DNA of 64,000 nucleotides from Sphingopyxis granuli NBRC 100800 (lineage in GTDB: Bacteria; Pseudomonadota; Alphaproteobacteria; Sphingomonadales; Sphingomonadaceae): assembly GCF_001591045.1 (NCBI RefSeq), contig NZ_BCUA01000003.1, positions 1 to 64,000 of the forward strand. Direction: 5' to 3'. Positions 10,028-48,116 of this stretch are shown here, in pieces. Position 1 is the first letter of the stretch; every line of letters starts with the position of its first letter. The position numbers and the translations under genes are program-made. A model generated the notes under the pieces. The model ran no database searches. It had not been told where the DNA came from and saw only the letters and a program-made list of their open reading frames with translations.

Positions 10028-10062
10028 CCTCCTCCTGACAGGCAAGGCCACTCGCATCTAGA

Positions 10063-10104: not shown

Positions 10105-10194
10105 GGAAGGAGAGCAGAGGGGGCTTGGGACCCTGTGGCACTGACCGGCGAACCCGTCGCCGACTGTCCAGATGCCTCAATCAGGAGATCCATC

Positions 10195-24074: not shown

Positions 24075-24151
24075 GACGACTAAACATAACAGCGAGGACA
24101 TTTCCGAATCTCGTTGCCTCGATATCAAGCATCCACTACGCTTACCCACAC

Positions 24152-24175
24152 AGAAACTGGTTTAGCCCAGTTTCT
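24152..24175 (+). promoter_or_regulatory. Candidate operator of the WYL regulator and defence operon
   Basis: A perfect 9-base inverted repeat, AGAAACTGG (24152-24160) and CCAGTTTCT (24167-24175), lies 14 bases before the WYL gene start. BrxR/CapW-type WYL regulators are known to bind an inverted repeat in the promoter of the defence operon that they head. The match in position and symmetry supports the same role here. Confidence 0.6.
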
Positions 24176-24189
24176 TGGGGGATCGGGGC

Positions 24190-28300: not shown

Positions 28301-29055
28301 TCCTCTACGAATGGCCTCGCGCTGCCGCTTTCGGACGCGTGATCCCCAAGAACAAGATCTACGAACATGCTGGCGCAAACACTGCGCTTAAGGACCTCTT
28401 TGTGCGCGAGGTTGATCAGATCGTCTGGTCGCACAAGTTGGCACCCGAGACAGTCAACCTGGCGGCAACGAAGTCAGTGGCCGAGGTTCAGGTCTTCCGC
28501 GTCACCGCCCGCACTCCGTCTCTGGACCACGAAGTGCTGCGTGCCATCGACAAGGCTATTCCCTTCCCGCTCATTTTTGAGGTGGTCCATGGTGGCCGCG
28601 TGAGGCTCGCCGCAGCCTACAAGCGGCCGAGCGAGGCCGATAAAACCCGTTGGGTGGTGAGCGACTATTTCCTAGGAGACTGGCTGCCCGAGGACGCACG
28701 CCGCACGCCGCTCCCAGTCGCGCTAAACATGCGCGCACTATACGAGCGCCTGCTCGAACCTTTGGTGACGGAACAAACCAATCGGCTGGTCCCAAGCATG
28801 GCCGAAGCGGTGAACACCGATCGCTCGACCGAAAAACTCGCCTCGATAGAAGAGCGCATAGCGCTCGCAGAGGCGATCAAGGTGCAGCTGCGTGAGGTCG
28901 AACGGATCAAAGCGCGGCTGGCGCGCGAAAAGCAATTCAACAAGCGTGTGGCGATCAATGCCGAGCTGCGCGCGGCCAAACAGGAATTTGAGCGGCTGAC
29001 GGCGGGGACCGCAGACGCTGCTGTAGCGAACTATCAAGAGGAAGATCATGGATAA
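28297..29055 (+). CDS. DUF4391 domain protein
   Basis: This 252-residue protein contains VQVFRVTARTPSLDHEVLRAIDKAIPFPLIFEV, the core of DUF4391. A WLPEDARRTPLPVALNMRALYERLLEPLV segment and an Arg/Glu-rich coiled coil over the last 80 residues follow. DUF4391 genes recur between SNF2-type helicases and type III-like methyltransferases in defence loci; the biochemical role is unknown. It may bridge the helicase and the methyltransferase. It overlaps the helicase stop (ATGA) and its own end overlaps the mod start by 8 bases. Confidence 0.83.
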   Translation: MILYEWPRAAAFGRVIPKNKIYEHAGANTALKDLFVREVDQIVWSHKLAPETVNLAATKSVAEVQVFRVTARTPSLDHEVLRAIDKAIPFPLIFEVVHGGRVRLAAAYKRPSEADKTRWVVSDYFLGDWLPEDARRTPLPVALNMRALYERLLEPLVTEQTNRLVPSMAEAVNTDRSTEKLASIEERIALAEAIKVQLREVERIKARLAREKQFNKRVAINAELRAAKQEFERLTAGTADAAVANYQEEDHG

Positions 29056-31057: not shown

Positions 31058-31067
31058 GGCTGCACCC

Positions 31068-34000
31068 ATGAAGCTGAAGTTCAAGGTCCAGCCCTATCAG
31101 ACCAATGCAGTTGAAGCGGTGGTCGATTGTTTCGCTGGTCAACCGAAGGTCGATGGTCTGACCTACCGCATCGACCCTGGCCAGAAGGCACAGGCAGCCG
31201 CTTTCGAGGAAGGGTTCAAGAACGCCGATTTCGCGCTGAGCGAGGCCCAGATTCTCGAGAACATCCAGGCGGTCCAACGCCGCCAGAACCTCCCTGTCGC
31301 GCAGCGGCTGGACGAGTTCATGGTGCTCGATCGAAACAATCAGCGCGTTGCCGCGCCGGCAGCCTATCGCCGCGACGCGCTGGCCGCGACCCGCATTCAC
31401 CTCGACGTCGAGATGGAAACTGGCACCGGCAAGACCTATTGCTACATCAAGACCATTTTCGAGATAAACAAGCGGTACGGCTGGTCGAAGTTCATCATCA
31501 TGGTGCCGTCGATCGCCATCCGCGAAGGCGTTTACAAGTCCCTGCAGATTACCGCCGATCACTTCACGGAAAGCTACGGCAAGAAGGCGCGGTTCTTCAT
31601 CTATAACTCCAAGCGCCTGCACGAGCTGGAAAGTTTTTCCTCCGATGCCGGTATCAACATCATGGTGATCAACATCCAGGCGTTCGCCGCGCGCGGGGCT
31701 GACAACCGGCGCATCTATGAAGAGCTGGACGACTTCCAGTCACGCAAACCCATCGACGTCATCGCGTCCAACCGGCCTATCCTGATCCTGGACGAACCAC
31801 AGAAGATGGAAGGTGCGGCAACCATGGAGGCGTTGCCGAACTTCAAGCCACTGATGGTCCTGCGCTACTCCGCAACGCACAAGACCCAGCATTGCCGCAT
31901 TCACCGGCTAGATGCACTGGACGCTTACAACCAGAAGCTGGTGAAGAAGATCGCCGTGCGCGGCATCCAGACCCGAGGCCTCGCAGGCACAAATGCGTAC
32001 CTCTATCTCGAAGGCATCGACATCTCGAAAAAGGCCCCGGTTGCCCGGATCGAGCTCGAGGTGAAGCTGAAGTCTGGTGAAATCAAGCGCCAGATTCGGC
32101 GATTGGAATTCCGCGACGACCTGTTCGTCGAGTCAGGCGATCTGGATCAGTATCGCGGCTTCACGATCAGTCAGATCGATTACAACACCGACACGGTCGA
32201 GTTCACAAACGGCATTGTCCTGAATGCAGGCGAAGCCAACGGTGATGTGTCTGAGCGTGATATCCGCCGCATCCAGGTCCGCGAGACGATCAAGGCCCAC
32301 CTCGACAAGGAGAAGCAGCTGTTCGCGCAGGGGATCAAAGTCCTGTCACTTTTCTTCATTGACGAGGTGGTGAAGTACCGGGACTACGACCAAGCCGATG
32401 AGAAGGGCGAATATGCCCGGGTCTTCGAGGAAGAGTACGAGTTGCTGAAGGCTGAGTACCTGTCGGAGCTCGCGATCGATAACAAGGCGTATCGGAAGTA
32501 CCTTGCCGGCATCGACCCAGCCAAGACACACAACGGCTATTTCTCGATCGACAAGAAGACGAACCGCCTGAAGGATCCAGCTGTTGGGGCCCGCTCGGTC
32601 GATTCTGACGACGTGGACGCCTACGACCTGATCCTGAAGGACAAGGAGCGCCTGCTTTCGTTCGCCGAACCCACCCGTTTCATTTTTTCGCACTCAGCGC
32701 TGCGCGAGGGGTGGGACAACCCGAACGTCTTCGTCATGTGCATGCTGAAGCACAGTGACAACACCATTTCGCGCCGTCAGGAGGTCGGTCGAGGACTACG
32801 GCTGAGCGTTGACCAGCATGGCGACCGTATGGATCACCCAGCGGTGGTGCACGATATCAACGTGCTGACCGTGGTCGCGAGCGAGAGCTACAAGGACTTC
32901 GTGACAGGCCTTCAGAGGGAAATTGCCGAGACCCTCTCATCGCGTCCGCGTGAGGCAACCGAAGCTTACTTCACGGGCAAGACGATCACCACCGAGCAAG
33001 GTCCGGTTGAGGTGACCGGCTCGATGGCGAAGCAAATCTATCGGTATCTGGTGAAGAACGACTACACCGACGATGCGGATCAGATTGCAGGCACTTACCA
33101 TGAAGCAAAGGCTGCCGGTGCAATGGCGGAACTGCCCGACGAGCTAAAACCCTATGCGGATCAGGTGTTCCAGCTGATCGACAGCGTGTTCAGCGACGCG
33201 CAGTTGCCCAAGGTGGGTGATGGCCGTAAGCCCAAGACCAATCCGCTCAATGCGAACTTCGATAAGAAGGAATTCCAGGAACTGTGGGCGCGGATCAATC
33301 GCAAGGCGGTGTACCGTGTCGAGTTCGATTCTGCGGAACTGGTCAGGAAGTGCGTCAGTGCACTGAACAGCCAGCTGCGCGTTACGCCGCTGCAATACAC
33401 GATTCAGGAAGGCAAACAGAACGACGACCTGACCGACGACAAGCTTCGCACCGGCGATGGCTTCACGGTTACGGCCACGACTACCGAACAGGGAGGTTCC
33501 ATCCACTCGTTTGTGAAATATGACCTTGTCGGAAAGGTCGCCGAAAGCACACAGCTGACGCGAGATACGGCTGCAACCATCCTTGGCCAGACCGAGCCTG
33601 CGGTATTCGGGCAGTTCAAAATGAACCCTGAACACTTCATTTCCGAGGCGTCGCGGATCATCGCCGAGCAGAAGGCTGCCATGGTCATCGAGCGCTTGGC
33701 CTACGACGAAGTCGATGAGCGTTACGACGTCGACATATTCACTGCCAACCAGACCGGCCAGGACTTCTCACGCGCCTCGGCGAAGCTCAAAAACCATGTC
33801 TATGACTACGCAATCACGGACTCGGATGTCGAAAGAGAATTCGTCAAAGAGCTGGACACGAGCACCGAGGTCGTCGTGTACGCCAAACTGCCACGGGGTT
33901 TCCTAATCCCGACCCCGGTCGGAGACTATAACCCGGACTGGGCGATTTCGTTCAAGGCTGGCAGCGTGCGGCACATCTATTTCGTGGCTGAAACGAAGGG

Positions 34001-34184
34001 GACGATGTCCTCGATGAAACTGCGCGAGATCGAGAAAACAAAAATTGAGTGCGCCCGGAAATTCTTCGATGAAATCAATGGGCAGATCACCGAGGATCGT
34101 GTCAGATATGACGTCGTTACGGACTATGGAAAGCTGATGGAGGTGGTCGGTCAAGGTGCTTCTGTGACGGACGATCGCGCATAA
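31068..34184 (+). CDS. Type III-like restriction subunit (Res helicase-nuclease)
   Basis: This 1,038-residue protein has an SF2 helicase core with Walker A METGTGKT at residues 116-123 and DEPQ at 242-245, the variant Walker B typical of type III Res subunits. A HQ-free [12 protein letters not shown] motif VI segment follows. The C-terminal PD-(D/E)XK nuclease site shows NPDW with Asp957, then Glu975 and Lys977 in ETKG. It would cut DNA after ATP-driven communication between two unmodified sites, together with Mod. Its stop overlaps the next start as TAATG. All catalytic residues appear intact. Confidence 0.9.
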
Positions 34185-35128
34185 TGAGACCTCGCTCCAT
34201 CAACATATTTCTGCTCGATGGCGACCCGGACGGTATCCGCGTTGCTCAGATCTCGATGTCGACAATCCAGGCTATCGCGTTTCGAAAACTGCAGATGAAA
34301 CAGGTGCGAGCCACATTCCCCGAACTGGCTCGACCGGGGGTGTACCTGCTGCTGGGCTTCGATGAAGCGCAACCTGATCGGCTGATGGCTTATATCGGGG
34401 AGTCCGAAGGCGTGGCCAATCGGCTGCAGTATCATGCCGGGAACGACAAAGGCTTGGATAGCAAGCCGTTCTGGACTGAGACCATTGTCCTAGTCAGCAA
34501 GGACGAGAACCTCACCAAGTCCCATGCCCGCTATGTCGAAGCCAGGCTGATCGCGGACGCGGGGCTGAACCCACGTTGGACGCTTCTCAATTCCCAGAAA
34601 GCAAGCGAGGTCGGCAAGCTACCGCTGCCGGACCGGGCAGCCATGGAAGAGTTCATCGACCAGACAAAGACGCTGGTTGGTGCTCTCGGCTGTGATCTGT
34701 TCAAGGTCGTCTCGGGCGACTTGACCAATGGTAACAAATTGGAAATCCCGGCGTCGCCATCCGCTTCAAATGTTATTTTCGCGTATCGTGGACAAGGCTT
34801 TGCTGCTCAAATGTCGATCACTGCCAGCAGCGAGTTCGTTGTGAAGAAGGGATCTATTGCCCGGATAAAAACTACGAATACAATTCCCAAGGGGACTGCC
34901 TCCTTACGTTCCGACCTACTCGCTAAGGGCATTCTGGTCGAACAGAACGACGGCCTCCTCTTCACATCAGACTATATTTTTGCATCTGTGTCGGCCGCTG
35001 CTGCCACTGTGACCGGTGCTGCAGCTAACGGCCGAATTCTATGGCGGCTGTCGGATGGTAGGACGTACGCTGAGTGGGAGGAGGCTGAAAATAGCAGTCC
35101 TGCGGGTGATCCCGAACCAAAGTTCTAA
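34184..35128 (+). CDS. GIY-YIG nuclease-like protein with DUF4357 domain
   Basis: This is a 314-residue protein. GVYLLLG and YIGES around residues 47-70 correspond to the two halves of a GIY-YIG motif, in a divergent form, followed by an Arg/Glu pattern (ARYVEARLI) that includes the family's conserved Glu. The C-terminus (SAAAATVTGAAANGRILWRLSDGRTYAEWE) is a DUF4357 domain, often attached to GIY-YIG proteins in restriction loci. It probably acts as an accessory nuclease. It is coupled to res by TAATG; a 72-base gap follows before the giant gene, the largest gap in this operon. Confidence 0.8.
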   Translation: MRPRSINIFLLDGDPDGIRVAQISMSTIQAIAFRKLQMKQVRATFPELARPGVYLLLGFDEAQPDRLMAYIGESEGVANRLQYHAGNDKGLDSKPFWTETIVLVSKDENLTKSHARYVEARLIADAGLNPRWTLLNSQKASEVGKLPLPDRAAMEEFIDQTKTLVGALGCDLFKVVSGDLTNGNKLEIPASPSASNVIFAYRGQGFAAQMSITASSEFVVKKGSIARIKTTNTIPKGTASLRSDLLAKGILVEQNDGLLFTSDYIFASVSAAAATVTGAAANGRILWRLSDGRTYAEWEEAENSSPAGDPEPKF

Positions 35129-35200: not shown

Positions 35201-38200
35201 ATGGAGATCAAATCTAGTGGCTTGGTGCATTCAGCTGAAAGCGACATTCTTCGACTGCAGCAGATTTTGCGGGAGGGGTATGCCTCGGGCTTCACGATCT
35301 TCAAGGAGCTGCTCCAGAACGCCGAAGACGCGGGTGCTCGCCGGATGGTCGTGGCCGGTCACGCTGGGTTCGATGAAGCGACTAACCCGCTGCTGCGAAC
35401 CCCTGGGCTGATTATCGCAAATGATGGTCCCGTCCTTGCCCGGCATATGGACGCGATCACCCGCGCCAGCGGCGGGAGCAAAGCGGATGAACGGTCGGCA
35501 GTGGGGCGGTTCGGTCTAGGACAAAAATCAGTCTATCATCTGTGCGACGCATTCATTGCGCTTGGCCGGGTGGAGGATCGCGAAGGCCGACCGCAAACGC
35601 TGATTATGAACCCATGGGAACAGGTTGCTGAAGCTAATGCGGCACATCGCGACTGGCCTCAGCTTTCTGCCACCGAAGCCAAGATGCTACTCGATAAGGC
35701 AGCGGCGCTAGGCATGGAGCGGGGCATGGCGCTGTTCCTTCCGCTGCGCACTCCACATCTGCGTCCCGGGGCCGCGCTGTGCCTGTCAGATACGAACTGG
35801 CACCCTGACGGTGCGATCTCAGATATCCTCGATGGTGAGGAATTGGCCGCGACATTGTGCTGCCTCCGCAATCTGGAGAGCGTGGAGATCATGCCAGTCG
35901 CGGGCGAGGTGCGCAGGATCTCCCTGCGTAGCGGCGCCCGGCGCTTGTCTGGCCCGGGTGTGGAGAGCGGAGCCCCGAGCATTTACGGTAACGTCGAGGG
36001 AGCTGGCTTCGAGCTCTCGTTCAGCGGACGCCAGCAATGGAAGCATGATGGGCAAGCTGCGCGACTGTTGACGGCCGATGGATGGGACAAGGTGTTCGAC
36101 ATCCACGGTAAACTCATTCCGCCCAAGGCGAATCCGCATGGTGCAGTAATCCTGTGCCGATCTGCTGCCCGTGAAGGTATGGGCCACTTGCGGTTGCGTT
36201 CTGCCGTTTACTTGCCGCTGGGTGAACCTCTGTTTTCCGAACCACTCGAACGCGGAACGGACAATATCGATCTGCTCGTGCACGGCTATTTCTTCGTGTC
36301 GAGCGACCGGCGAAAACTGCGTGAAGACGATCATATCGAAACCCGTTGGAACCAGGCGCTCCGCCGCGAGGCGGCGCTGCCGCTGCTGCTGGATGCGATT
36401 GCAGATACCTTGCCCAGCTTACCCAGTGATGCAGAGCGTCATGCGCTGATCCGAGCATTACAGCGGACGCGATGGTGGCATGAGCACCGTGTGGAAGCCT
36501 GCCAGGGCAAGGCCCTTGCCCGGTGCTGGACGGGCGACAAGGCGGAAAGCTGGCGGGTTTGCGCCGGTGACTCGCTGCGTCCGGTGATGAGAGGCGATGC
36601 AACCTCGATTGCCCGCCTCAAGGCCGCTTTTCCTAGACTCGAGGAGTGGTGCAGCGAAAACGGCATCGTTTTGGCATTCGGCACGGTCTTGGCTGATGCT
36701 GATCCACACTGGCCGGATGCGCAGCTTGCTGACTTGGTACGCCTTGCCGGGCCGGCCGCCTTCCAAAAAGGACAGATCGCCGAAACGTTGGCGACAGTGC
36801 TCGAGGGCGCGCAGCCCGGCGAAGCAACACGGATGGCGTTGGTCGAAACTTGCCGCAGCGCCATCGCCATGGTCGAGCAAAGTTTCGCTACTGCTGACAA
36901 GCTGAAGCCGCTTGTCCGACGCCTCCCGCAGGATCGCATATTTGTTCTCCCGCCGAGCGTAGAAAATCGTGAGCTCCTAAACGCGTTGGCCGCCGCAGGG
37001 GGTAGTATTCCGCTTAAGGCTGCGTGGTCGGAGCAGGGTGGGGCGATGTCCCGGCAATTGGGGCTGAGCGAGACAATCGAACTGTTGACCGCCGCCGAAC
37101 CCTTTTTGTCATCTCGAGGAACCGTAGCGCAGGAAGCTTCGACGCTGATATCGCATCTCTTGAGGAACGGTCCATCGCTCGACGCATTGGCGGCGGATCG
37201 TCGGGGTAGTGAATTGCAGGTTATTCCGGCGCGCATGATGCAAGCCGAAGAGGAAGTGCGGCTATCTTTAGGCGCTATCGCGGGATTGAAGCGCAAGGGT
37301 TTGCTGTTCGATGCGGCACCAAATCGGGAGCTGGTCGTGCTCGCTGGCGCAGTCCTCTCACCCCCGATTTACCGTGTTACATTGAAAGATGGAGGGTTGG
37401 GGGATTTGGCCTCGGCCAAGAAGGCCGATTGCCTCCTTGCAGTCTTGCGGCAGGTTGATCGCTTCGGGGATCCTGGCAAGTGTGGCGAGCTTGCTGAACT
37501 GCTCGGTGCCGATGCTCCACGCGAGGAGTTGCGGCGCCTTGTTGCGAGAGATCAGGCTGTGCCTTCGCACGTCAATCTGATTGAGCTCGATGAGCTCGGT
37601 GGGATACTCGATGATCTGGTACTGGCGCTGTTGCAGGACAGGGAAGATCGCCTCGTAGCGTCTGCGACTGCGGCGGAATTGAAAAAGGCATTGCGCGATC
37701 ACATTGGCCTGCGACGGATCGATCTTGCCGAATTAGGCGCATGGCTTCGCGATGCGCAGTGTGCTGGCACCATGCCGCCGATGGACGACTCCAAGGCTAT
37801 GGCATTGCTCAAGTCAGGGATCGATGACGATGTTTTGAAGTCGCTGCCCTTGCACAGATCCGACCAGCATGAACCCCTTCTTCCGGCCACTGATCTGTTC
37901 AGCGGTCGTGTTTCGGATGTTGCACCTGCGCTCTTGCCATTTACCCGTCTGGTCGAGCTTTGGGGCGATCCTTTAGCAGCGGCGGTTCAAAACAGGCTTA
38001 TCGGGCGCTGGGGGCCTGAAGCCGCGATCCGCACAGCATTGTCCGCGCCAAATCCCCATCAGTTTACCTCGGAAATTGCTTCAGCATTGGGCGCAATCGA
38101 CCAAGTGCCTGTTGATCTGATAGAAAAGCTTCAGGCGACCGCCTGGATTGCTGCGGACGGGAATGCTTGGACACCGATCAAAGTCCTCGACCTGCCTCTG

Positions 38201-41200
38201 GATGCTGAACATGCGCTCGAGGAGCTGATTATCGACCAAGGCGGACTTCTGTTCGCAAGCATACTTCCCGGCTCCCTTCGCGAAGAAAGTGTGCAGCGGC
38301 ACTTGGCGAGGCTAAGACCCGATCGGTCCCAGTCATTTCTCTTTGCCGCCCGCCTTGCCGCTGACCACGGAGCCACCGGCCTTTGCCTTGATGTCGTCGA
38401 GCACCTAGATGAGCTAGCCAAGCTGGCGACCTCGAATGTTGGCCTTGATGCAGAAGCGTGGCCTCTGATCTCTGCGGCTCTTCGCGACGGCGTGGCCGAT
38501 GAGGTCATCGCGGGGATGGCTGAAGTTTTGAGCGCGCCCTCTCTTGCCGACACCGTTGCTCAAATGAATGCAATGGCTGCACTGAGCGGGCTCGGCACGA
38601 ATGCTGAAGCAGCACGGCGCCTTTACCGCTCAACATTTGCCCGAAATCTGCGTGCTTTGACACATGCGTCCAGCTATCTGCCGCCCGATCTCCTTGTACC
38701 GACCGAAGCAGGTGGGTTCAGCAGGGCAGACAGGGTTGCGCTAGGAGCAGCAGGTATCGACCCTGCGGCGCTCCTCGCACACGATTATGCAGGCAAACTG
38801 GAACAGCCCGACGATCAAAAAACAGACACCATTCCAACCAGCAAGTCTGCCAAGGCGGACTGGCTCGAGAGTGTCGAGCGCGCCTTCACTCCAGTCAGCC
38901 AATACGATGTGCATGATGGGATTCTGCTAGCTCTGGCGATGCTTGGTCGTGATGACAGGATCCAGTCGCTCGCGGCCAGATGGGAAGGTCAGCGATCATT
39001 CCACCGCATTTGCGATGATCTCGACAATTTGGCCGACGAACACCGTGGCTTGACCAACGCAAATTTGGACCGGCTTGCTGAACTGCGTTTTGCAGTCGAG
39101 CTGCCGGAACACGGGCACGTTACGGTGCGATCAGCTGCTGGAACGGACTGCACCGTTCCGCTGTCTGGCAAAGACGATGCGCTGCTGCTGGATTGTATTC
39201 AGAGAGGAATTGAGCGCAACGAATATGGCTATCGACACGTCTATGACCTCGTGATCGGACCGGTATCGCCATCCGATGAAGCCGAGGCGCGGCTGTTGTT
39301 GGATCAGTTCATCAAAAAACTGGCGCCGGCTCTGATGCTAGGCTTCGAACGTCACAAGGCGGCATTGTCGGAGCTCTTGGATAGCTATTTTACAAGCGAT
39401 CAGCGCACGCTCGCAGACACCTGTGAAGAGTTGCAGGAGGTGCTTCATGATCGCCTGGCCGGCATCAAGACCGGGCCCGTAATGCGCGCGGCATTGAATG
39501 ATTATCATCGCGACGCACCACGCGACCGGGACAAGGCGCGCAACGCACTTTGGGCAGCCGCGCAGTCGGACGACGGGGCGAGGGAGCTTCTCGAAGCCAC
39601 CCGCCAGAAGATCGACGAGATGGGCTATGCTCCCCATCGCGTGGTTTTCGAACTGTACCAGAATGCTGTCGATGCCCAAGCGCAATGGCACGGTATCGGA
39701 CGCTTCCGGGTAGAAGCGATCTACAATGACGATCAAGTGATCACTTGCTTGCGAGTGATCCATTGGGGGCGCCCCATCAATCAACCAGGGAGTGATCCAC
39801 GTAAGGCAGAGGAAGAAGGGCACCGACGGGACCTTTCGAATATGCTAGCCATCAATCACTCTGCCAAAGATGGAGATCGGGTAACCGGTCGCTTCGGCCT
39901 TGGATTCAAGACCGTGCATATGCTCGCCGACGAAGTTCGCCTCGCCAGCGGAGGCATAGCTATCCGGATCTTGGGAGGCATGATCCCTGCAGATTGGGCA
40001 GGGGGAAGCAGGACGGTCACCCCATTCCATGACAGGGGGCGCAAAGCGACTCTCATCGAACTTCCGGTTGCTCCAGGCCGATCAGAAGATGCGCTAGACG
40101 CATGGGAAGCGTTTCGGGATGCGGCTCCGTTCTTGGCGGCGCTCGGTCAGGAAGCATCCATCGAGGTGGTGGCTCCAGACGGTGAGACCGTGTTCCGACA
40201 TGAGGAGCATCCTCTTGTCGATGGCGTGAGCTGGCTGACAATCGATGCTACTCGCCACGTATTGCGCTTCGATTTAGGGAGTGATTTCCGGCTCTTCCTG
40301 CCCTTCGGACGTAATGGGCCCTACTCGTTTCCGCATGATGTGCCGCAGTTTTGGCACCTTGTCCCGCTCGTTGGTGAACGTCGCCGGGGGGGCTGGCTTC
40401 TGGAAGGCCGCTTTCCGGTTGACCCGGGGCGTACCCAATTGTCTGGCACGGCCGATGAGAAGGATAGCCGATTTGCCCGGCTTGGCATTGCTCTTGGGCC
40501 ACGGCTCATCGCTTTTTACGACCATTGTCTTGCTGACTGGTCAAGCTTCGCGCGAGCGACAGGTCTCGATCCGGAAGGACGGGAGGATTTTTGGCAGAAG
40601 CTAGTGCAGCTTTTTGCACAAGATCTGGCAAGCCAGGGGTCCGAACAGTCACTACACAAGTCAGGCCAAGGCCTTGCGAGGCTATGGGCGGAGCGCCCCG
40701 TGGTGCCGCTGGCTTTCGGCGGTGCAACGCGCGCGGCTGATGTCAAATGGCGCTTGTCGGGAGCGCTTGCCGATCGCGATGCTCAAGCTGCGATCTCGAA
40801 TTTGCTCGCCGAAGTGGAATTCAAGAATGCAGTTGTCACTGAGGAAACAGGACAGCTTCTGAAATCTGTTGGGCTGCCTTCGGGTCAACGACTGGATGTC
40901 GTGACCTTGGCCGAAAACCTTGCTGGAGCCGAGGGCATAGATCCTGGGCTGGCGGGACGCATTTCCTGTCTTTGCGAGGAAGCAGTTTCGCAGGCGATGA
41001 CCGGTGAGGAACAATCAGAATTCCGCAAGTTACTGCGTGAGCGGCTCTGGCTCGCCGAAGATGGAAGTTGGCAGCAGATCCGTCTTCTAGCGTTTCCGCT
41101 GGGCGACAACGATGAACAAGGCAGGGCTGCATTCGCTCCTCCTTCGGGCCGCCTTTCATCAGAGTACGTAGGCGCCGCCTTTGAGCTCGCTGCCTTCGCC

Positions 41201-42364
41201 CGTGAACAGGCAGGTCAGCTACCCGTCGCCAAATGGGCTGAGACTGCCGGTGACAGCGCCGCACGCCAGCAAGCCTTCATTCGTTATCTGGTCGGTGCGG
41301 ATGATCGGACCGTCGCACTATTAGCGAGCGCGGCAAAGTGGCTACCCAATGTCGACGAACTCGCCAACTCCCCTCTGCTGGCCGGGCTGAGGCAAGACGA
41401 GAAGAACCGGTTGCTCGCCAAGCTAGGGTATTCATTCGGCCTCCCTTCAACACCGGTCGATCCAATCAGCCCATGGCAACCTGACGCTGCGGAGGCGCTC
41501 TCAAGGATCGCGCAGTGGTGGCGCGACAATCATGGGGATTTGCGGGCTGCCTATGATCGAGCCGTGTATCCTGAAGATTTTTCGTCAGCAGCCCTCGCTG
41601 ATGGAGATAAGCCCGCCTGGTTCACCATGCTTTCCCTCGCAACCTTCCAGACACTGGGGAGGATTAAGCCGGCTCAATCCCGGCAGTTTGTTACCAAGGC
41701 AATCCAAGATGGCTGGTGGCACGAACTCGCGACAATCGACCCTTGTGACGAGGAGCTGAGGCCTTTTGTCGAGCGCCTCCGAGCCTGGAGCGATCCAGAT
41801 GCCGATGAAAACTACCTGATGTGGCGCAGATGCCTTCCTGATCTATGCATGATCGCGCGGCATCTCGAAAGCTACCAGAGACTGTTCCGCAAATTGCCTG
41901 CGGTGATCGCCCAAGAGGGTGACGTGAGCCTGCGCGGACATTTGCGACCGGCATTCTCTCACGTCGCCGCTCGTATGGGCATTGAAGCAGCCCCTCTAGC
42001 AAGATCGCTTGGCATTGGCGCCAACTGGCTTGTGCGCGAATTGGGCCGCAAAGGTATCTATTCTCAGGCGCAATTCGAGCAGATCATGCCGTATGGCTGG
42101 AGTGCGGCGGAACGCGTCCGCCGCCTCGCTTACACGCTCGGCATGGGCCAGTTTGAGCGTGGCATCGACGAGGGACGCGCCCTGTATGGAGCGGTAGAGC
42201 GTCGCATTGGTGATGCCGCTCATTTCGATGGCGATGGTGATTTGCCATTGCACGTGATCACACTTGCCAAGCACCGCGATGACCTCGTGTCGATCCTTCA
42301 CGATGCAGACGTCGACGAATGGCCAGACAATAATTGGGACGATGCAGAAGATGACGATGCCTGA
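35201..42364 (+). CDS. Giant sacsin-like protein with two GHKL ATPase modules
   Basis: This 2,387-residue protein is one of the largest in the window. An N-terminal GHKL module shows the N-box ELLQNAEDA (residues 36-44), ANDGP as the Asp-containing motif and RFGLGQKSVYH as the lid motif, as in sacsin and Hsp90-like ATPases. A second complete set lies near residues 1,480-1,570: ELYQNAVDA, then RFGLGFKTVHM. The rest is helical with no recognised domain. ATG 35201 was chosen over the upstream GTG 35138 because GGAG precedes it at the right distance and the conserved start is close. Inferred role: ATP-gated clamp or chaperone-like sensor working with the helicase encoded next. Confidence 0.82.
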   Translation: MEIKSSGLVHSAESDILRLQQILREGYASGFTIFKELLQNAEDAGARRMVVAGHAGFDEATNPLLRTPGLIIANDGPVLARHMDAITRASGGSKADERSAVGRFGLGQKSVYHLCDAFIALGRVEDREGRPQTLIMNPWEQVAEANAAHRDWPQLSATEAKMLLDKAAALGMERGMALFLPLRTPHLRPGAALCLSDTNWHPDGAISDILDGEELAATLCCLRNLESVEIMPVAGEVRRISLRSGARRLSGPGVESGAPSIYGNVEGAGFELSFSGRQQWKHDGQAARLLTADGWDKVFDIHGKLIPPKANPHGAVILCRSAAREGMGHLRLRSAVYLPLGEPLFSEPLERGTDNIDLLVHGYFFVSSDRRKLREDDHIETRWNQALRREAALPLLLDAIADTLPSLPSDAERHALIRALQRTRWWHEHRVEACQGKALARCWTGDKAESWRVCAGDSLRPVMRGDATSIARLKAAFPRLEEWCSENGIVLAFGTVLADADPHWPDAQLADLVRLAGPAAFQKGQIAETLATVLEGAQPGEATRMALVETCRSAIAMVEQSFATADKLKPLVRRLPQDRIFVLPPSVENRELLNALAAAGGSIPLKAAWSEQGGAMSRQLGLSETIELLTAAEPFLSSRGTVAQEASTLISHLLRNGPSLDALAADRRGSELQVIPARMMQAEEEVRLSLGAIAGLKRKGLLFDAAPNRELVVLAGAVLSPPIYRVTLKDGGLGDLASAKKADCLLAVLRQVDRFGDPGKCGELAELLGADAPREELRRLVARDQAVPSHVNLIELDELGGILDDLVLALLQDREDRLVASATAAELKKALRDHIGLRRIDLAELGAWLRDAQCAGTMPPMDDSKAMALLKSGIDDDVLKSLPLHRSDQHEPLLPATDLFSGRVSDVAPALLPFTRLVELWGDPLAAAVQNRLIGRWGPEAAIRTALSAPNPHQFTSEIASALGAIDQVPVDLIEKLQATAWIAADGNAWTPIKVLDLPLDAEHALEELIIDQGGLLFASILPGSLREESVQRHLARLRPDRSQSFLFAARLAADHGATGLCLDVVEHLDELAKLATSNVGLDAEAWPLISAALRDGVADEVIAGMAEVLSAPSLADTVAQMNAMAALSGLGTNAEAARRLYRSTFARNLRALTHASSYLPPDLLVPTEAGGFSRADRVALGAAGIDPAALLAHDYAGKLEQPDDQKTDTIPTSKSAKADWLESVERAFTPVSQYDVHDGILLALAMLGRDDRIQSLAARWEGQRSFHRICDDLDNLADEHRGLTNANLDRLAELRFAVELPEHGHVTVRSAAGTDCTVPLSGKDDALLLDCIQRGIERNEYGYRHVYDLVIGPVSPSDEAEARLLLDQFIKKLAPALMLGFERHKAALSELLDSYFTSDQRTLADTCEELQEVLHDRLAGIKTGPVMRAALNDYHRDAPRDRDKARNALWAAAQSDDGARELLEATRQKIDEMGYAPHRVVFELYQNAVDAQAQWHGIGRFRVEAIYNDDQVITCLRVIHWGRPINQPGSDPRKAEEEGHRRDLSNMLAINHSAKDGDRVTGRFGLGFKTVHMLADEVRLASGGIAIRILGGMIPADWAGGSRTVTPFHDRGRKATLIELPVAPGRSEDALDAWEAFRDAAPFLAALGQEASIEVVAPDGETVFRHEEHPLVDGVSWLTIDATRHVLRFDLGSDFRLFLPFGRNGPYSFPHDVPQFWHLVPLVGERRRGGWLLEGRFPVDPGRTQLSGTADEKDSRFARLGIALGPRLIAFYDHCLADWSSFARATGLDPEGREDFWQKLVQLFAQDLASQGSEQSLHKSGQGLARLWAERPVVPLAFGGATRAADVKWRLSGALADRDAQAAISNLLAEVEFKNAVVTEETGQLLKSVGLPSGQRLDVVTLAENLAGAEGIDPGLAGRISCLCEEAVSQAMTGEEQSEFRKLLRERLWLAEDGSWQQIRLLAFPLGDNDEQGRAAFAPPSGRLSSEYVGAAFELAAFAREQAGQLPVAKWAETAGDSAARQQAFIRYLVGADDRTVALLASAAKWLPNVDELANSPLLAGLRQDEKNRLLAKLGYSFGLPSTPVDPISPWQPDAAEALSRIAQWWRDNHGDLRAAYDRAVYPEDFSSAALADGDKPAWFTMLSLATFQTLGRIKPAQSRQFVTKAIQDGWWHELATIDPCDEELRPFVERLRAWSDPDADENYLMWRRCLPDLCMIARHLESYQRLFRKLPAVIAQEGDVSLRGHLRPAFSHVAARMGIEAAPLARSLGIGANWLVRELGRKGIYSQAQFEQIMPYGWSAAERVRRLAYTLGMGQFERGIDEGRALYGAVERRIGDAAHFDGDGDLPLHVITLAKHRDDLVSILHDADVDEWPDNNWDDAEDDDA

Positions 42365-45038
42365 AACACTGGCCGCTGACGCAAGAGTCACTCACCCACG
42401 CCACGGCGTGGGACAAGTTATTGCCGATGCAGGAGAATTCGTCGTTGCGCGTTTCGGCGCGACGATCCAGCAGGTTCTTCGCACAGAACTCACGCTTGCT
42501 CGGTCGCTAGATCAAGCGCTGTCGACCGGGACTTTCGACGACAGTGCCGAGACTTTGATGCGGGCCAGCGCCATGGCAATCCGGTCCGTTAACGATCAGT
42601 GGGGGGTGTTTTCTCGATCACGCGTCCAGCTGCTCCCGCATCAACTCTGGGTTTGTCACAAGGTTAATCGAACTTTCCCGTTCCGCTGGTTGGTGGCCGA
42701 TGACGTGGGGTTGGGCAAAACGATCGAAGCCGGTCTGGTGCTCATGCCTCTGGTTGCTCGGGCTCAAATTCGCCGCCTGCTGGTATTGGCACCAGCAAAG
42801 CTAGTGCCCCAATGGCAGAAACGCCTGCGGCAGATGTTTGATATCCGCCTGCAGGTCTACGATCGCTCCGTTGATACACCTGCTGTGGATTTCTGGGATA
42901 CGGCAAACATGGTGGTCGCGTCGGTCCACACGCTGCGCCGGGAAGTCGCCGACGGACGGGCTGAAGGCAGCCGGTTTCTTGCGGCCGATCCTTGGGACGC
43001 GGTCGTGGTCGATGAGGCGCATCATTTGCACGCGGATGAACGCACGGGAGAGACCCTTTCCTTTCAGCTCCTTCGCGCGCTGGAGGAACGGCACAGAATT
43101 CGTTCTCTTCTTCTGTTCACGGGCACACCACATCGGGGCAAGGACTTCGGCTTTCTGTCATTGCTGAGCCTCCTTGATCCGGATCAGTTCGGACCCGAGC
43201 ACGACATCGACGAGCAACTGGCCAAGCTTCCGGATGTGATGATCCGTAATAACAAGGCGACCGTTACCGATCTCAAAGGCAACCGCCTTTTCACGCCGGT
43301 CACAGTGCAAACAAGGGAGTACGCCTTTAGCGCTGCGGAAAGCGCATTCTACGAAACGTTGAGTGCCTTCATCATCGATGGGCGAGCATATGCATCGACC
43401 CTCGATGGTCGGGCACAGTCGGCAAGAATGCTCTTGCTGATTGCGCTGCAGAAGCTTGCGGCGAGTTCGATTGCTGCGATTCGTAGCGCCTTGACCAAAC
43501 GCCGCGCGAAACTGGCAGATGTTGCTGAGCAGGCTCGTACGCCGTCTGTGTCCATAACGGAGGGTGATGACGACGAGACATTGGACGACCGCGCGCGGGC
43601 CGACGAAGAGGCGTGGGGCAAGATGCTCGCCGAACTGATGGAGGGCGAGATCGCTCGCCTGGATGAGCTGCTTGAGTTGGCTGCACCCATTCAGCAAGAG
43701 CGGAAGATCGAGCGACTGGTAGATCTCATCGAGAGCGATTTGCCCACCGGCGAGCCAGTGCTGCTCTTCACCGAATACAAAGCAACCCAGGCTCTCGTCG
43801 TTGATGCCCTGCATGCTCGATTTGGTCACGGTTGCTGCGGCTTCATCAACGGTGATGAACGCTTGGACGAAGTTACCAAGGCGGACGGTTCGCGGGGCCC
43901 GAAAAGTTGGTCGCGCGATGCGGCAGCGGAAGCCTTCAACCAAGGCACGATCCGCTTTCTGGTTTCAACCGAGGCAGCGGGCGAAGGGATCGATCTTCAG
44001 GAGCGCTGCGCGACGCTCATTCATGTCGACATGCCCTGGAATCCCATGCGGCTTCATCAGCGTGTCGGCCGCCTGTCGCGCTACGGTCAGACAAGGCCGG
44101 TTCAAGTGTTCATCCTGAGGAACCCAGACACGGTGGAGGCGCGCATTTGGGACCTCCTGAACGCCAAGCTCGAGCGAATCCAGCGCACCTTGGACGAGGC
44201 AATGGATGAGCGAGAAGACATCAGCCAGCTCGTCATAGGCATGACTGGGCCAAGTGCTTTCGAGAAGATTTTTGCTGCAGGCCAGACCCAGCCGCGAGAA
44301 AGCCTCGATCAGTGGTTCGACCGGGAATCTGCTACGATTGGCGGAGAAGACCTAGTCGATAAGGTCAAGACCATGCTTGGCAATGTCACTCGCTTCGACT
44401 TTGCCCAAGTTGGAAGAAATCTTCCGCAGGTTGATCTGCCGGACCTCGAACGTTTTTTCGCGATGATGATGGAATCGAAGGGGCGGCGCGTTTTCCGGAG
44501 GGACGATGGTCTCGACGTTCTGACGCCCGATAAATGGGCCGATGAAGACTACGCCATGCAAGATCGTTACAAGGGGCTGCTGTTCGATCGCAATGCTCGC
44601 TTGGGCAATGGCGAAGGCCCGACCCGTCTTGTCGGCGTGGGGCACACACTTTTCGATCGAGCGCTGAAGGAAGGGGAAAACCTCCAATCGGCTCTGGCGA
44701 CCTGCACGCGATTGCCCGCTCCCTTTCTTATCGCCTCAGTTGAGGATCAGGTCACTGGCCAGGACCACTCGGTTACTCGAATTATCCTAGGTGCTTGGCG
44801 CGATAACGCAGCTCAGATCTATGTTCTCCGAGACTGGGAAGTCCTTCAGTTATTGAACACGTTAGGTCGCTCGGACAATCCGAAGTCGCCTGAAATCGAC
44901 ATCCCACAGATGCGGGCGTTAGAGGCTGATCTCCTTGATGCAATGTCGCAAAGTTTGCCGACTGTCGCGGACATGATGACCCGTCCAGGCATCCGAAGCG
45001 AGATGATGCTCTTGCCGGATCAAGGCGCCGATACGTGA
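42357..45038 (+). CDS. SNF2/RapA-like helicase partner of the giant GHKL protein
   Basis: This is an 893-residue protein. The first 50 residues (VTHPRHGVGQVIADAGEFVVARFG) look like a small CarD/KOW-type beta barrel. The SNF2 core has DVGLGKT at 116-122, DEAH at 219-222, FTGTPHRGKDFG as motif III, VSTEAAGEGIDLQ as motif V and HQRVGRLSRYGQ as motif VI. It is a duplex-DNA translocase by family. It overlaps the giant gene's stop by 8 bases, so the two are made together. ATG 42357 was chosen for its spacing from AGAAG; 42351 is possible. It resembles DISARM DrmD only in being a long SNF2 protein; other DISARM genes are absent. Confidence 0.85.
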   Translation: MPETLAADARVTHPRHGVGQVIADAGEFVVARFGATIQQVLRTELTLARSLDQALSTGTFDDSAETLMRASAMAIRSVNDQWGVFSRSRVQLLPHQLWVCHKVNRTFPFRWLVADDVGLGKTIEAGLVLMPLVARAQIRRLLVLAPAKLVPQWQKRLRQMFDIRLQVYDRSVDTPAVDFWDTANMVVASVHTLRREVADGRAEGSRFLAADPWDAVVVDEAHHLHADERTGETLSFQLLRALEERHRIRSLLLFTGTPHRGKDFGFLSLLSLLDPDQFGPEHDIDEQLAKLPDVMIRNNKATVTDLKGNRLFTPVTVQTREYAFSAAESAFYETLSAFIIDGRAYASTLDGRAQSARMLLLIALQKLAASSIAAIRSALTKRRAKLADVAEQARTPSVSITEGDDDETLDDRARADEEAWGKMLAELMEGEIARLDELLELAAPIQQERKIERLVDLIESDLPTGEPVLLFTEYKATQALVVDALHARFGHGCCGFINGDERLDEVTKADGSRGPKSWSRDAAAEAFNQGTIRFLVSTEAAGEGIDLQERCATLIHVDMPWNPMRLHQRVGRLSRYGQTRPVQVFILRNPDTVEARIWDLLNAKLERIQRTLDEAMDEREDISQLVIGMTGPSAFEKIFAAGQTQPRESLDQWFDRESATIGGEDLVDKVKTMLGNVTRFDFAQVGRNLPQVDLPDLERFFAMMMESKGRRVFRRDDGLDVLTPDKWADEDYAMQDRYKGLLFDRNARLGNGEGPTRLVGVGHTLFDRALKEGENLQSALATCTRLPAPFLIASVEDQVTGQDHSVTRIILGAWRDNAAQIYVLRDWEVLQLLNTLGRSDNPKSPEIDIPQMRALEADLLDAMSQSLPTVADMMTRPGIRSEMMLLPDQGADT

Positions 45039-45370: not shown

Positions 45371-45386
45371 TCTCTGCAGATCACCA
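45365..45386. terminator. Perfect hairpin between convergent genes
   Basis: TGGTGATCT (45365-45373) and AGATCACCA (45378-45386) pair perfectly around CTGC. The hairpin contains the stop codons of both the small membrane protein gene and traG. The right side continues CTCTTTC on the plus strand. It may serve as a bidirectional terminator. Confidence 0.55.
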
Positions 45387-48083
45387 CTCTTTCACTTCAT
45401 CCGCTGCCTCTGCACTGGCGCCTTGGGCTCCCTTTGTAACGGCGTCGAGGCGTCCGGTGGGTCCGCTGATCCTTTGGCGACCGACCGCCTGAGCCCTTTG
45501 CACCTCTTCATGGAGATCGCCGGCTCCCACGCGGGGCACTGAACCGGAACCCCCGCCGCCGGTCTGTGCCCGGCTGCGGACTGAGCCCGCGCTTGAAATG
45601 ACCGGTCGGGATACGGGCAGTCCGGTGGCGAGTACGAGGCGATCGTCGATCCCGTCGCGAAGCTGCTCGGCATAACTTTCAACGAACTTTGCCTGCAATG
45701 CCTGGCCTTCCGGACTGAGCTGGAATGTCACGTCGTCGAACCGAGCGTTGCCATAATAATCGCGGTTGCTTTCGATCTCGGCAAGACCCCATTCTCGGTA
45801 GGCTTGGGACAGATTGAGATTGCCTGCAGCGCTGTTTCCCTCGAAGAAAGACGCTTGGCTCTCAAGACGATTGGCAAGCTCCTCGGCTCGGCGAGCCTCG
45901 ATAGTGAAGCTCTGTGCTTCCGTCAGAGAGGCATTCATGCCGCTTGCGGTGCTCGAGATCGACGAGCTTGATGCGGTACTGACCGAGCGAACGAACCCAT
46001 CGCGGGTGCTCGACCAATTGCGGCTGTCAGACATCTGGGACAGGCTCCCAAAGATCCGCGAACGGTCTTCCGAAGCGATGCCGATGTCGCTGTCGGTCCA
46101 CGTGCGTGTCCCACCGCCCTTCGCTCCGATGCTCCCAGAGAGCACGCCATTTGAAATTCCGGCTTTTGCCCCAGCTTCGCCACCGAGGAACCAGGCCGTG
46201 GAGATGTCATCGGCCGCTCTGCGGGACAGCCCGAATTGCTGCTGCAGATTGGTCGATGCCTGATCGACTTCGCTGAATGCAGTCTGGATGCTGTCGGAGT
46301 TCGAGGTGCCGGTCGCGCTCTCGAAGGATGCGCCTCGGCTGAACTGGTCCCTGAGCTCGCGGAACTTCGTGACAGCGCTGGTCGTCGATTCCGTGGCGAC
46401 ATTGGTATAGGTCTCGCTGTTGGCGCGGGCCTGCGACGCCATCGTCGAAAGGCGCGCCGTGAATTCCTGGCCCAGCGTCGGCGTGAAGGGATAGCTGGAG
46501 GTCGGGATCTGGTCGTAGCTGCCATCCGGGAAGCTCGTGGTCATCGAGCCGGTGTCGCTGAATGTCCGCGTCTGCGGCGCGCCATAGGTGAAGCTTGGGG
46601 CAAACGTGCCTTGGGCGAACTGACGCGTGAGGACGCTCGAGTTTTCGAAGCTGGTGTTGCCGAGCGAGACATTGCCGGTGCTCGCCTCTCGGGCCGCTTC
46701 TTCCGCCGCGTTCTGGCTAGGGTTGAGGTAGCTCGTCGCGTGGTGCGAGATTGCCATGGCGCCCTTCGCCACACCCCCTGCCAGAAACGGGACTGAGGCG
46801 ATGAGGTAGCCTGCCAGCAGGCCAATATCGCTGTTCACGTCAGCCATGCCGGTGAAGCTTGCAAGGCTGAGGCCGCTGCTGCCCGTGACCGCGCTCATGT
46901 CGGCGGCGCCCTTGTACATCAGCATCATGTGGAGGATCACGAACAACGGCCCCCAGGCCGCCAGATAGAAGAAGCCCGTCACATAGCCCTTGAGTGCGAC
47001 CGGCCCCGTCTTGGGAAGCAGGAACAGCGGGAAAAGCACCGGGAAGAGGGCGTAGAACAGCACGGTCAGCACGACGTTCAGGAGCGGGACCCACTTCATC
47101 GCGTTGCTCGCGATCGAGCCATAGGTCCGCTCGGTCTGGATGTCGGCGCGGGTCTGGGCGTAGACGTCAACATTGCCCGTACCGCTGCTGCCGGACATCG
47201 AGTGCATCGCCTGGCTCATCGCATTGATCGTCAGCGTCTGCTTGAAGATCTCGGTTGCATTGGCCGAGACCCCGGTCAGGTACTGATAGGCCACCGGCAG
47301 ATCGGCAAAGAGCTTGGCCTTGGCGAGCGCGGCTGTCTGGTTGGGGTAGAGCTGACGGCCGAACACCGAACCCATTGCATCGACCAGCCCGGCCCACTGC
47401 GCATTGAGCGTGTCGTAGGCCTCGCGGCAGGTCACGATGTTCGAGCTCACCTGGCCCGTGGTCGCATCGCGGGTCAGGAACCGTTGGGCGCGTGCCTGGC
47501 TGCCCGGCGCGATCGTCGCCCAGATGTCACCTGTCTCCGCCAGCTCCTTCATCGAGTAGCGGCCGAGAAGGACGTCGTAGAACACGCACTGCCGGAAATG
47601 CTCATCGAGATTGGCGGCGAACTCGGGATCGGAAATCCGCAAGGACCGGGTCGCATCGTAGAGCCGCGCGCCGTAGATCATGCCGTTCTTTGAATAGTTG
47701 AGATCGCCTGGCAGGCCGAACACCACCTCGGCCGAGCCCGTCAGATAATCGCCGACCTGGCTGGTAAAGCTCGCCATGAGAGCCAGGCCCAGTGGCACGT
47801 TGCTGACATTGGCCGGCGCAAGGCTCGGGTTGAGCCGGTCGGTCACATGGACATCGAGCCGCGGCACCATCAGGCAGGAGTAAATGAGCGTGGCGCCCAG
47901 GAACCAGTTGATCCAGGCGCGCCAGTCCTGATTGAACGCCAGGGTCAGGGCGGACAGGCCAAGGCCCATCACCATGACCACCTGGAGCAGGCTTTTGTAG
48001 CCGCCGTTGCCGGTCCAGGCAGCGACTGCCTGGAAGACGTTGACCAGATAGTCGCCGCCGCCGACCGTGAAAATCTCCACCAT
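45381..48083 (-). CDS. traG: TraG, mating-pair stabilisation protein of an F-type system
   Basis: This 900-residue inner-membrane protein has several hydrophobic segments in the N-terminal 450 residues (for example GYKSLLQVVMVMGLGLSALTL and a FPVLFPLFLLPKTGPVALKGYV cluster). A long polar, Ser/Thr- and Gln-rich periplasmic C-terminus follows. The layout and the terminal place in the operon after traH are those of F TraG, which acts in pilus assembly through its N-terminal part and in mating-pair stabilisation and entry exclusion through its C-terminal part. Start at 48083, 33 bases after traH. Confidence 0.88.
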   Translation of the reverse strand: MVEIFTVGGGDYLVNVFQAVAAWTGNGGYKSLLQVVMVMGLGLSALTLAFNQDWRAWINWFLGATLIYSCLMVPRLDVHVTDRLNPSLAPANVSNVPLGLALMASFTSQVGDYLTGSAEVVFGLPGDLNYSKNGMIYGARLYDATRSLRISDPEFAANLDEHFRQCVFYDVLLGRYSMKELAETGDIWATIAPGSQARAQRFLTRDATTGQVSSNIVTCREAYDTLNAQWAGLVDAMGSVFGRQLYPNQTAALAKAKLFADLPVAYQYLTGVSANATEIFKQTLTINAMSQAMHSMSGSSGTGNVDVYAQTRADIQTERTYGSIASNAMKWVPLLNVVLTVLFYALFPVLFPLFLLPKTGPVALKGYVTGFFYLAAWGPLFVILHMMLMYKGAADMSAVTGSSGLSLASFTGMADVNSDIGLLAGYLIASVPFLAGGVAKGAMAISHHATSYLNPSQNAAEEAAREASTGNVSLGNTSFENSSVLTRQFAQGTFAPSFTYGAPQTRTFSDTGSMTTSFPDGSYDQIPTSSYPFTPTLGQEFTARLSTMASQARANSETYTNVATESTTSAVTKFRELRDQFSRGASFESATGTSNSDSIQTAFSEVDQASTNLQQQFGLSRRAADDISTAWFLGGEAGAKAGISNGVLSGSIGAKGGGTRTWTDSDIGIASEDRSRIFGSLSQMSDSRNWSSTRDGFVRSVSTASSSSISSTASGMNASLTEAQSFTIEARRAEELANRLESQASFFEGNSAAGNLNLSQAYREWGLAEIESNRDYYGNARFDDVTFQLSPEGQALQAKFVESYAEQLRDGIDDRLVLATGLPVSRPVISSAGSVRSRAQTGGGGSGSVPRVGAGDLHEEVQRAQAVGRQRISGPTGRLDAVTKGAQGASAEAADEVKEW

Positions 48084-48116
48084 GTCTATTGTTCCGCCTG
48101 GATGTGGTTGGCCCGG

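Follow-up and report, generated by a model that had tools for sequence, protein, structure and literature searches.

The stretch analysed here, hereafter the window, comprises 64,000 nucleotides of Sphingopyxis granuli NBRC 100800 (assembly GCF_001591045.1, contig NZ_BCUA01000003.1, positions 1 to 64,000 of the forward strand), and it encodes a giant protein with two GHKL ATPase modules in a single chain, followed by the gene of a SNF2 translocase. The giant gene (35201..42364, forward strand, as are all of its parts given below) specifies 2387 residues from the ATG at 35201, from which residue numbers are counted throughout, and a possible GTG at 35138 would extend the product to 2408 residues. 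In the close relatives L005 and L007 (loci are denoted here by L and G numbers) the codon matching this ATG is ATA, and the start in these two loci must therefore lie upstream of the equivalent of 35201. The uncertainty on the start is at most 21 residues, all of them N-terminal to the first motif. When compared with six close relatives, the ratio of nonsynonymous to synonymous substitution rates (dN/dS) of the giant is 0.11-0.12 over the full length, 0.05-0.11 over both GHKL modules and 0.05-0.14 in every part, which rules out a frame overlap or a non-coding open reading frame (ORF).

Module 1 (residues 1-420; 35201..36460) consists of a GHKL ATPase and a following region with the invariant R370. 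Its N-box (E36-D43, ELLQNAED; 35306..35329), motif II (N74-D75-G76; 35420..35428) and lid (G102-K109, GRFGLGQK; 35504..35527) harbor E36, N40, D43, N74, G102, G105, G107 and K109, all of which are invariant in the 15 giants aligned. In the alignment with sacsin, N74 occupies the position of Asp79 of Hsp90, as does Asn160 of sacsin. A 12-row profile of module 1 searched against the PDB retrieved four sacsin SR1 sequences with E-values of 6e-22 to 6e-21 (the best being 5.9e-22), the next match being MORC2 at 6e-4. A Foldseek search initiated with the low-confidence model of the N-terminal half placed sacsin SR1 first (E-value 4.3e-6), and VIA-align superimposed this model on sacsin with a Z-score of 12.2 and a root mean square deviation (RMSD) of 3.8 over 189 residues, all 50 rows shown being GHKL proteins by title. 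The whole protein matches the NCBIfam sacsin module NF047352 over two stretches with 109.3 bits (cut-off 50; E-value 9.2e-32) and Pfam SACS (PF25794), also over two stretches and best in module 1, with 78.8 bits (cut-off 32.8). We conclude that module 1 is a sacsin-type GHKL domain in both sequence and fold.

Module 2 (residues 1431-1780; 39491..40540) is an Hsp90/GyrB-like GHKL ATPase with the invariant R1744 downstream. Residues E1484, N1488 and D1491 of its N-box (E1484-A1492, ELYQNAVDA; 39650..39676) and G1563, G1566, G1568 and K1570 of its lid (G1563-K1570, GRFGLGFK; 39887..39910) are invariant in all 15 giants. At motif II (39761..39769), H1521-W1522-G1523 replaces the Asp-Thr-Gly of Hsp90, with which the column is aligned; residue 1521 (39761-39763) is His in 14 of the 15 giants and Asn in L068, and G1523, R1524 and N1527 are invariant. 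A His or Asn at the adenine-binding Asp site of Hsp90 may alter nucleotide binding in this module. An 8-row profile searched against the PDB matched TRAP1, GRP94 and HtpG with E-values of 2e-5 to 4e-5, and sacsin with 0.002. Foldseek, using the model of the C-terminal half, ranked sacsin SR1 first (E-value 8.3e-3; GyrB at 0.03) with no match at 0.001 or better, and VIA-align superimposed the same model on TopoVI-B (Z-score 8.8, 164 residues, RMSD 3.7), GyrB (8.4, 149 residues, 3.6) and sacsin (8.0, 147 residues, 4.3), with all 50 rows shown, down to a Z-score of 7.7, being GHKL by title. Because these Z-scores are near the level that VIA-align calls middling, the fold evidence is weaker than for module 1, and the assignment of module 2 rests on sequence profile and structure jointly. 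Pfam HATPase_c by itself remains below threshold on module 2 (E-value 0.04; 14.8 vs 26.4 bits), as it does on the relative in G719 (21.1 of 26.4 bits).

The set of 15 giants over which invariance was scored includes those of the window, L002-L005, L007, L008, L010 (C-terminally short, retained), L011, L012 (two genes joined), L013, L068, L075, G719 and G724. Left out were L006, L014, L015 and L016/L067, which are truncated or broken, L009, which is frameshifted, and Trichormus ATCC 29413, the second gene of which is 100% identical to that of L012; alignment A10 excludes L010, and alignment A11 excludes L012. Invariance across the 15 giants extends to 92 residues, 35 of them in module 1, 36 in module 2 and 21 among the other 1,617 (Fisher p 2e-19). 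Each module retains its catalytic Glu, the Asn and Asp of the N-box, the glycines and the Lys of the lid, and a single Arg further downstream. These Arg residues, R370 and R1744, may be the counterparts of the catalytic Arg of sacsin, which is given as R474, R1839 and R2893 in the available passages of PMC9880540. The profiles of the two modules match each other with an E-value of 4.5e-9 at about 20% identity over 152 columns, and a direct BLASTP comparison of the two halves of the giant yields only an E-value of 0.004. A recent internal duplication is ruled out by this low identity together with the different nearest solved relatives of the two modules. Eight TmtA models of PADLOC also match the giant, some with their best stretch in module 1, such as PDLC03965 (E-value 8e-23), and others in module 2, such as PDLC03968 (E-value 2e-20).

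A preliminary description of this DNA had placed a pair of N-box and lid motifs in each half of the chain, and both pairs are present, with N-boxes starting at residues 36 and 1484, RFGLGQK at 103 and RFGLGFK at 1564. It had proposed separate profile searches for the two halves; those made here with each module lead to sacsin SR1 for the first and to TRAP1, GRP94 and HtpG for the second, and in the low-confidence half-chain models both motif sets lie on a predicted GHKL fold, contrary to the outcome that it had named as refuting. Its claim of two complete GHKL modules stands as to their number, which profiles and conservation support; the word complete needs a caveat, because the Asp of motif II, with which Hsp90 anchors adenine, is replaced in both, by Asn in module 1 (15/15) and by His in module 2 (14/15). 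By analogy with sacsin, which also carries Asn, the replacement would weaken completeness and leave the assignment to the GHKL fold intact. In the sections of PMC9880540 available, all three sacsin modules are described as having Asn at the Hsp90 Asp site while retaining the catalytic Glu and the Asn and Asp of the N-box.

Between and beyond the two modules the giant has few recognizable features. The middle region (residues 421-1430; 36461..39490) has few invariant residues and belongs to no recognized family, the Pfam scan to an E-value of 1 giving one sub-threshold match, DUF7782. The C-terminal region (residues 1781-2387; 40541..42361) contains the conserved motif RSLGIGANWLVRELGR (residues 2268-2283), which is present in 14 of the 15 giants and absent from L010; a PDB sequence search with this region found no relative up to an E-value of 5. 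A nuclease within the giant was considered and rejected, as the sacsin module is the sole Pfam match over cut-off in the four giants scanned and the C-terminal region has no PDB relative at an E-value of 5 or below. A match to Dynein_heavy in the L068 giant (E-value 0.004, 17.5 of 30.5 bits) was judged to be due to chance. The AlphaFold2 models of the two half-chains, built from 10- and 9-row alignments, have a mean predicted local distance difference test (pLDDT) score of 41.2 for the N-terminal and 45.4 for the C-terminal half, probably because the alignments are shallow, and are too weak to show how the middle and C-terminal regions fold.

The gene that follows the giant (42357..45038, forward strand) encodes an 893-residue SNF2 translocase of the RapA/DrmD clade, with a start inferred from relatives at an ATG that overlaps the stop of the giant by 8 nucleotides. 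The PADLOC DrmD model PDLC02634 matches it with an E-value of 9.6e-242 over model positions 10-839 of 900, and the corresponding protein of L068 over positions 1-883 of 900. In the PDB the best match is RapA (E-value 2.4e-47), with CHD1L next at 7e-20. The Walker A motif VGLGKT, the DEAH box, and motifs V and VI (GEGID and HQRVGR) are invariant in all six proteins aligned. The protein fails the NCBIfam cut-offs for DrmD, with 279.6 of 610 bits and 145.8 of 950 bits.

Giants related to that of the window were found at 21 loci, the window included, with L016 and L067 being one contig. Two of these loci, L015 and L016, stop at a contig edge, leaving 19 with a readable downstream neighbor, and in 16 of the 19 the SNF2 gene lies directly downstream of the giant (the window, L002-L005, L007, L008, L009, L011, L012, L013, L068, L075, Trichormus ATCC 29413, G719 and G724). 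The three that lack it all have truncated or broken giants: homology to the giant stops near residue 1717 in L006, the L010 protein has 2103 residues without the C-terminal motif, and the L014 gene is broken with insertion sequences next to it. The giant of Sphingomonas changnyeongensis (L009) is frameshifted inside module 2 (L009:16700-16900), and its relatives G719 and G724 are intact. The association could also be recovered from the other side. Searching plasmid records with the SNF2 protein gave 80 matches at an E-value of 1e-40 or better. Among the best 60 of these, five have a coverage of 97-99% and an identity of 44-74%, and each of the five lies next to a giant; the remaining 55 show no more than 34.3% identity over no more than 82% of the query. 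Two of the five records are Trichormus strains with identical scores. Pairwise distances of giant and SNF2 correlate with r of 0.97, and those of module 1 and module 2 with r of 0.98 (8 representatives of the 15). In Trichormus, module 1 resides in a protein of 828 residues and module 2 in one of 1853 residues, encoded by genes that overlap by one base and are followed by the SNF2 gene. By Rosetta-stone logic this split suggests that both modules belong to one complex, and it implies that the covalent link between them is not essential everywhere. Judged by gene order and sequence, the giant and the SNF2 protein form a two-gene unit, and this result is stronger than the finding of the double module.

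The giant-SNF2 pair is present in Pseudomonadota, Deinococcota and Cyanobacteria, and is rare. Relatives of the giant were found in 2 of 240 genomes of the class and 3 of 396 of the order, the genome of the window being counted in each. A nine-row profile matches ORFs in 26 of 398 genomes of the phylum (again counting its own), and only the match in the window is full length; the other 25 are ORFs of 325-1097 residues with one short match each, many of them of 620-660 residues, a size typical of Hsp90 or MutL. The sacsin module scores over cut-off in 10 of the 398 genomes, the nine other ORFs having 325-1417 residues, with at least one (L076) cut by a contig end. The module profiles match eight of these nine ORFs, each at one N-terminal place, and the ORF of 1417 residues is matched by neither. 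In this sample the expectation of the preliminary description that bacterial proteins of this kind usually show one module holds, and the tight coupling to SNF2 that it had seen at the locus is borne out by the overlap of the two genes and their adjacency elsewhere. Nothing was returned when E. coli genomes were searched with the SNF2 gene of L068 or phage records with its giant, and among the literature matches listed, in a search mostly without subscription papers, no paper on a bacterial double-sacsin/SNF2 pair was found.

In seven Sphingomonadales loci (L002-L008), nucleotide homology to the window begins at about 35.0 kilobases (kb), at the start of the giant, which aligns in all seven; it then runs from the giant through SNF2 into conjugation genes in L002, L003, L004, L007 and L008, and ends after SNF2 in L005 and inside the giant in L006. 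Beside the pair, the conjugation backbone occupies 45381..49553 on the reverse strand, with TraG_N at 45381-48083 (E-value 9e-135) followed by a gene labelled TraH without a family search, and its proteins show 90% and 92-96% amino-acid identity in L002, L007 and L008. Upstream of the giant lies an exchangeable slot (23951..35127, forward strand), which has no nucleotide homology to the upstream stretches of L002-L008. Within the 4.7-10 kb compared per locus, only the far edge of L004 is homologous, the window segment 22511..23950 being element backbone on the far side of the slot with 76% nucleotide identity to L004:24-1464 (no strand assigned). The synonymous divergence of the giant from L005, L007 and L008 is 0.74-0.79 in module 2 and 1.7-2.8 in module 1, values above 1 being near saturation, and this gap suggests recombination within the giant upon exchange of its upstream partner.

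The slot genes of the window encode a WYL regulator (24175), HKD-Snf2 (25031; C3a139 of PADLOC), a DUF4391 protein (28297), type III Mod (29048) and Res (31068), and a DUF4357 protein (34184) with a weak GIY-YIG match (PDC-S14). The run from 24175 to 35128 combines a type III restriction-modification (R-M) operon with extra genes, and this combination may represent a separate variant of type III. Among Sphingomonadales, the pair is constant and the upstream partner variable. The partners include PglX-PglZ-BrxL of the bacteriophage exclusion (BREX) system in L002, type I R-M in L004, DrmD with type III Mod and Res in L008, a DUF1156 methylase with a PLD-helicase in L005 and L007 (with DUF499 also in L007), and a type II methylase gene on the opposite strand in L003. 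Elsewhere, PDC-S11 and type I genes accompany the pair in L011, PDC-S68 does so in L009, and the Trichormus locus L012 adjoins a defence island system associated with restriction-modification (DISARM). The IMG/VR contig L068 has the order HsdR-HsdM-HsdS-PDC-S11-giant-SNF2 with an adjacent integrase-like ORF, a compact island in a viral collection. Pairs for which the stretch read contains no modification system are those of G719, Deinococcus QL22, the second copy in D. wulumuqiensis and, on its one readable side, G724. The negative depends on incomplete plasmid gene tables in the case of L013 and L075; for G719 and G724 it comes from a BLASTP comparison with genes labelled at the other loci and from a Pfam scan of four proteins. 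The integrase-like name in L068 and the pyrB/pyrC-like names of genes in G719 and G724 were read from the sequences and not from a family search. In G060 a WYL regulator, 59% identical to that of the window, adjoins the giant.

Some further observations concern individual loci and the rest of the element. A PIF1-like helicase of 902 residues with a TBP-TOTE domain is encoded upstream of the pair in G719 (L071:6596-9304), and in Haematobacter (L010:7541-18300) a single-module, TmtA-like protein of 1404 residues lies directly upstream of the C-terminally short giant without SNF2. The element in the window also carries a Hachiman-like pair (3797-7377), viz., HamA (PF08878, E-value 1e-57) and then a DEAD helicase of 869 residues with a 4-base overlap. 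A RES-domain protein (1752-2968; E-value 5e-36) after a small ORF resembles a RES toxin-antitoxin pair, and at 8006-11136 a ParB-like gene is followed by that of an ArdC-type anti-restriction protein, so that the element holds anti-restriction and restriction functions together.

Based on the conserved modules and motor motifs, the overlapping gene pair, its co-inheritance across distant bacteria, and the defence and mobile-element surroundings, we hypothesize that the giant and SNF2 assemble into a single mobile complex, driven by ATP, which targets invading double-stranded DNA either alone or as an addition to a DNA-modification defence system; we put the probability of this reading at roughly one in two. 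The RapA/DrmD-clade SNF2 protein would bind DNA and translocate, and the giant would serve as scaffold and switch for this motor. Its two unequal GHKL heads would bind ATP, shut their lids and reshape the long middle and C-terminal regions, by which engagement with foreign or stalled DNA would be converted into a block on that DNA. Contact between the giant and SNF2, ATP binding and hydrolysis, DNA as the substrate and the defence outcome are all steps that we infer. Several observations weigh against the hypothesis. ATP binding by either module is uncertain, given that neither has the Asp that anchors adenine in Hsp90; no nuclease is recognized in either protein, nor any other effector domain in Pfam and PDB sequence searches; the low confidence of both half-chain models leaves the domain arrangement unreadable; Haematobacter (L010) retains a giant of 2103 residues without SNF2; the pair is rare in the class and order samples; and neighborhood evidence cannot tell a working partner from clustering within defence islands. 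A bolder version of the hypothesis, which we regard as doubtful, is that the pair constitutes an as yet undescribed system that acts against invaders autonomously and can also be added on to others in general. In it, the two unlike heads of one chain would form a pseudo-heterodimeric ATP gate that the dedicated motor loads on DNA, and the unit would act downstream of nearly any modification-based system. If so, human sacsin would be a eukaryotic relative of a bacterial DNA-defence switch.

The presence of two heads in one polypeptide could also be explained by an intramolecular clamp, in which the heads pair in an ATP-dependent manner, like the dimer of MutL, GyrB or Hsp90, and close round DNA loaded by SNF2. 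TopoVI-B and GyrB, with which module 2 aligns, have heads that pair. Of the 15 aligned giants, 14 carry both heads in a single chain and one has them in two neighboring genes; the heads are co-inherited, and the approximately 1,060 residues between the end of module 1 and the N-box of module 2 could span the required distance. However, the two heads differ in sub-type and in motif II, and the half-chain models cannot place them. Moreover, in the accessible portions of PMC9880540 the heads of sacsin, the nearest multi-module relative, are argued probably not to pair, the reasons given being differences in the interface residues and the packing of each lid on the middle domain that belongs to it, though the same paper notes that AlphaFold predicted a dimer for the first head. 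On balance we consider a clamp rather unlikely.

Alternatively, since sacsin and the Hsp90 relatives are chaperones, the giant might mature or regulate the adjoining R-M, BREX or DISARM complexes, with SNF2 clearing stalled complexes off the DNA. Many copies do adjoin methylation systems, including type III, type I, BREX, DUF1156-methylase/PLD-helicase, DrmD/Mod/Res, the L003 methylase and DISARM. These partners, however, share neither sequence relationship nor type of complex, and the gene that travels with the giant is that of a dedicated SNF2 protein and not of a co-chaperone. In addition, no modification system was seen in the stretch read for G719, the second D. wulumuqiensis copy and QL22 (the plasmid gene tables being incomplete), and such pairs also weaken an obligate accessory role in R-M. 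A chaperone function thus appears less likely still than a clamp. The least credible alternative, that the pair helps the integrative element to be transferred, established or stably kept and does not serve host defence, draws on the continuous homology from the giant through SNF2 to the conjugation genes in five Sphingomonadales loci and is made improbable by relatives in other settings, viz., Deinococcus and Trichormus plasmids, the L068 island, and the vicinity of pyrB/pyrC-like genes in G719 and G724.

A mobile defence complex of the giant and SNF2 would be of interest in several respects. As two heads are encoded by one gene, single-head and double-head mutants are possible, and the natural split in Trichormus probes the importance of the link. 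The same pair occurs beside R-M of types I and III, BREX, DISARM or, in the stretch read, no such system, and this offers a test case for general add-on modules in defence islands. The pair may also bear on the ATPase cycle of the human ataxia protein sacsin, which is a matter of debate in the available part of PMC9880540.

Among known systems, the SNF2 protein resembles DrmD of DISARM, the PADLOC model of which covers it nearly end to end, and the Trichormus and Synechocystis copies are near DISARM-like genes. Membership in DISARM is nevertheless rejected, as the scores fall short of the NCBIfam cut-offs for DrmD, and to our knowledge the giant is not part of published DISARM. In a PADLOC scan confined to 25.0-45.0 kb, with at most 25 families per protein, DrmA, DrmB or DrmC was the best label for none of the seven proteins scanned, and a DrmA model cross-matches both SNF2 proteins. 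The TmtA models of PADLOC match both giant modules with their N-terminal part, and their best stretches on the giant cover about 30-210 positions of models that are 1063-1655 long; a literature search, mostly without subscription papers, found no paper defining TmtA. VcSduA is a tested anti-phage protein with a GHKL ATPase for which a clamp-like dimer has been modelled, but it has one GHKL domain fused to a PD-(D/E)xK nuclease, and the available passages of PMC12137116 do not mention a SNF2 partner.

A parallel in gene organization is that of the prokaryotic MORC and paraMORC proteins, highly mobile GHKL ATPases that occur beside superfamily II (SF-II) helicases, including SNF2, and R-M genes. 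In the accessible text of PMC2292703 (Iyer et al. 2008), units of GHKL and SF-II helicase are described in R-M operons and DNA looping is proposed for them. Such an arrangement has therefore been known since 2008, and what is new here is a compact two-gene version with two distinguishable heads per polypeptide. The MORC and paraMORC proteins are described there with a single N-terminal GHKL and an S5 domain, whereas the giant has two modules in about 2,400 residues. With respect to the modules themselves, the closest likeness is to sacsin (animal SACS; PDB identifiers 5V44-5V47), which has modules of the type of module 1, with the same Asn in motif II, and likewise carries more than one Hsp90-like module along a very large chain, with three of them according to the part of PMC3710099 available. 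A chain with several such modules is not unique in life. The Ubl, DnaJ and HEPN domains of sacsin were not found in the giant in the Pfam scan to an E-value of 1. Thus, where sacsin has three modules that are alike, the giant has two that are unlike, and it is bacterial, mobile and paired with SNF2.

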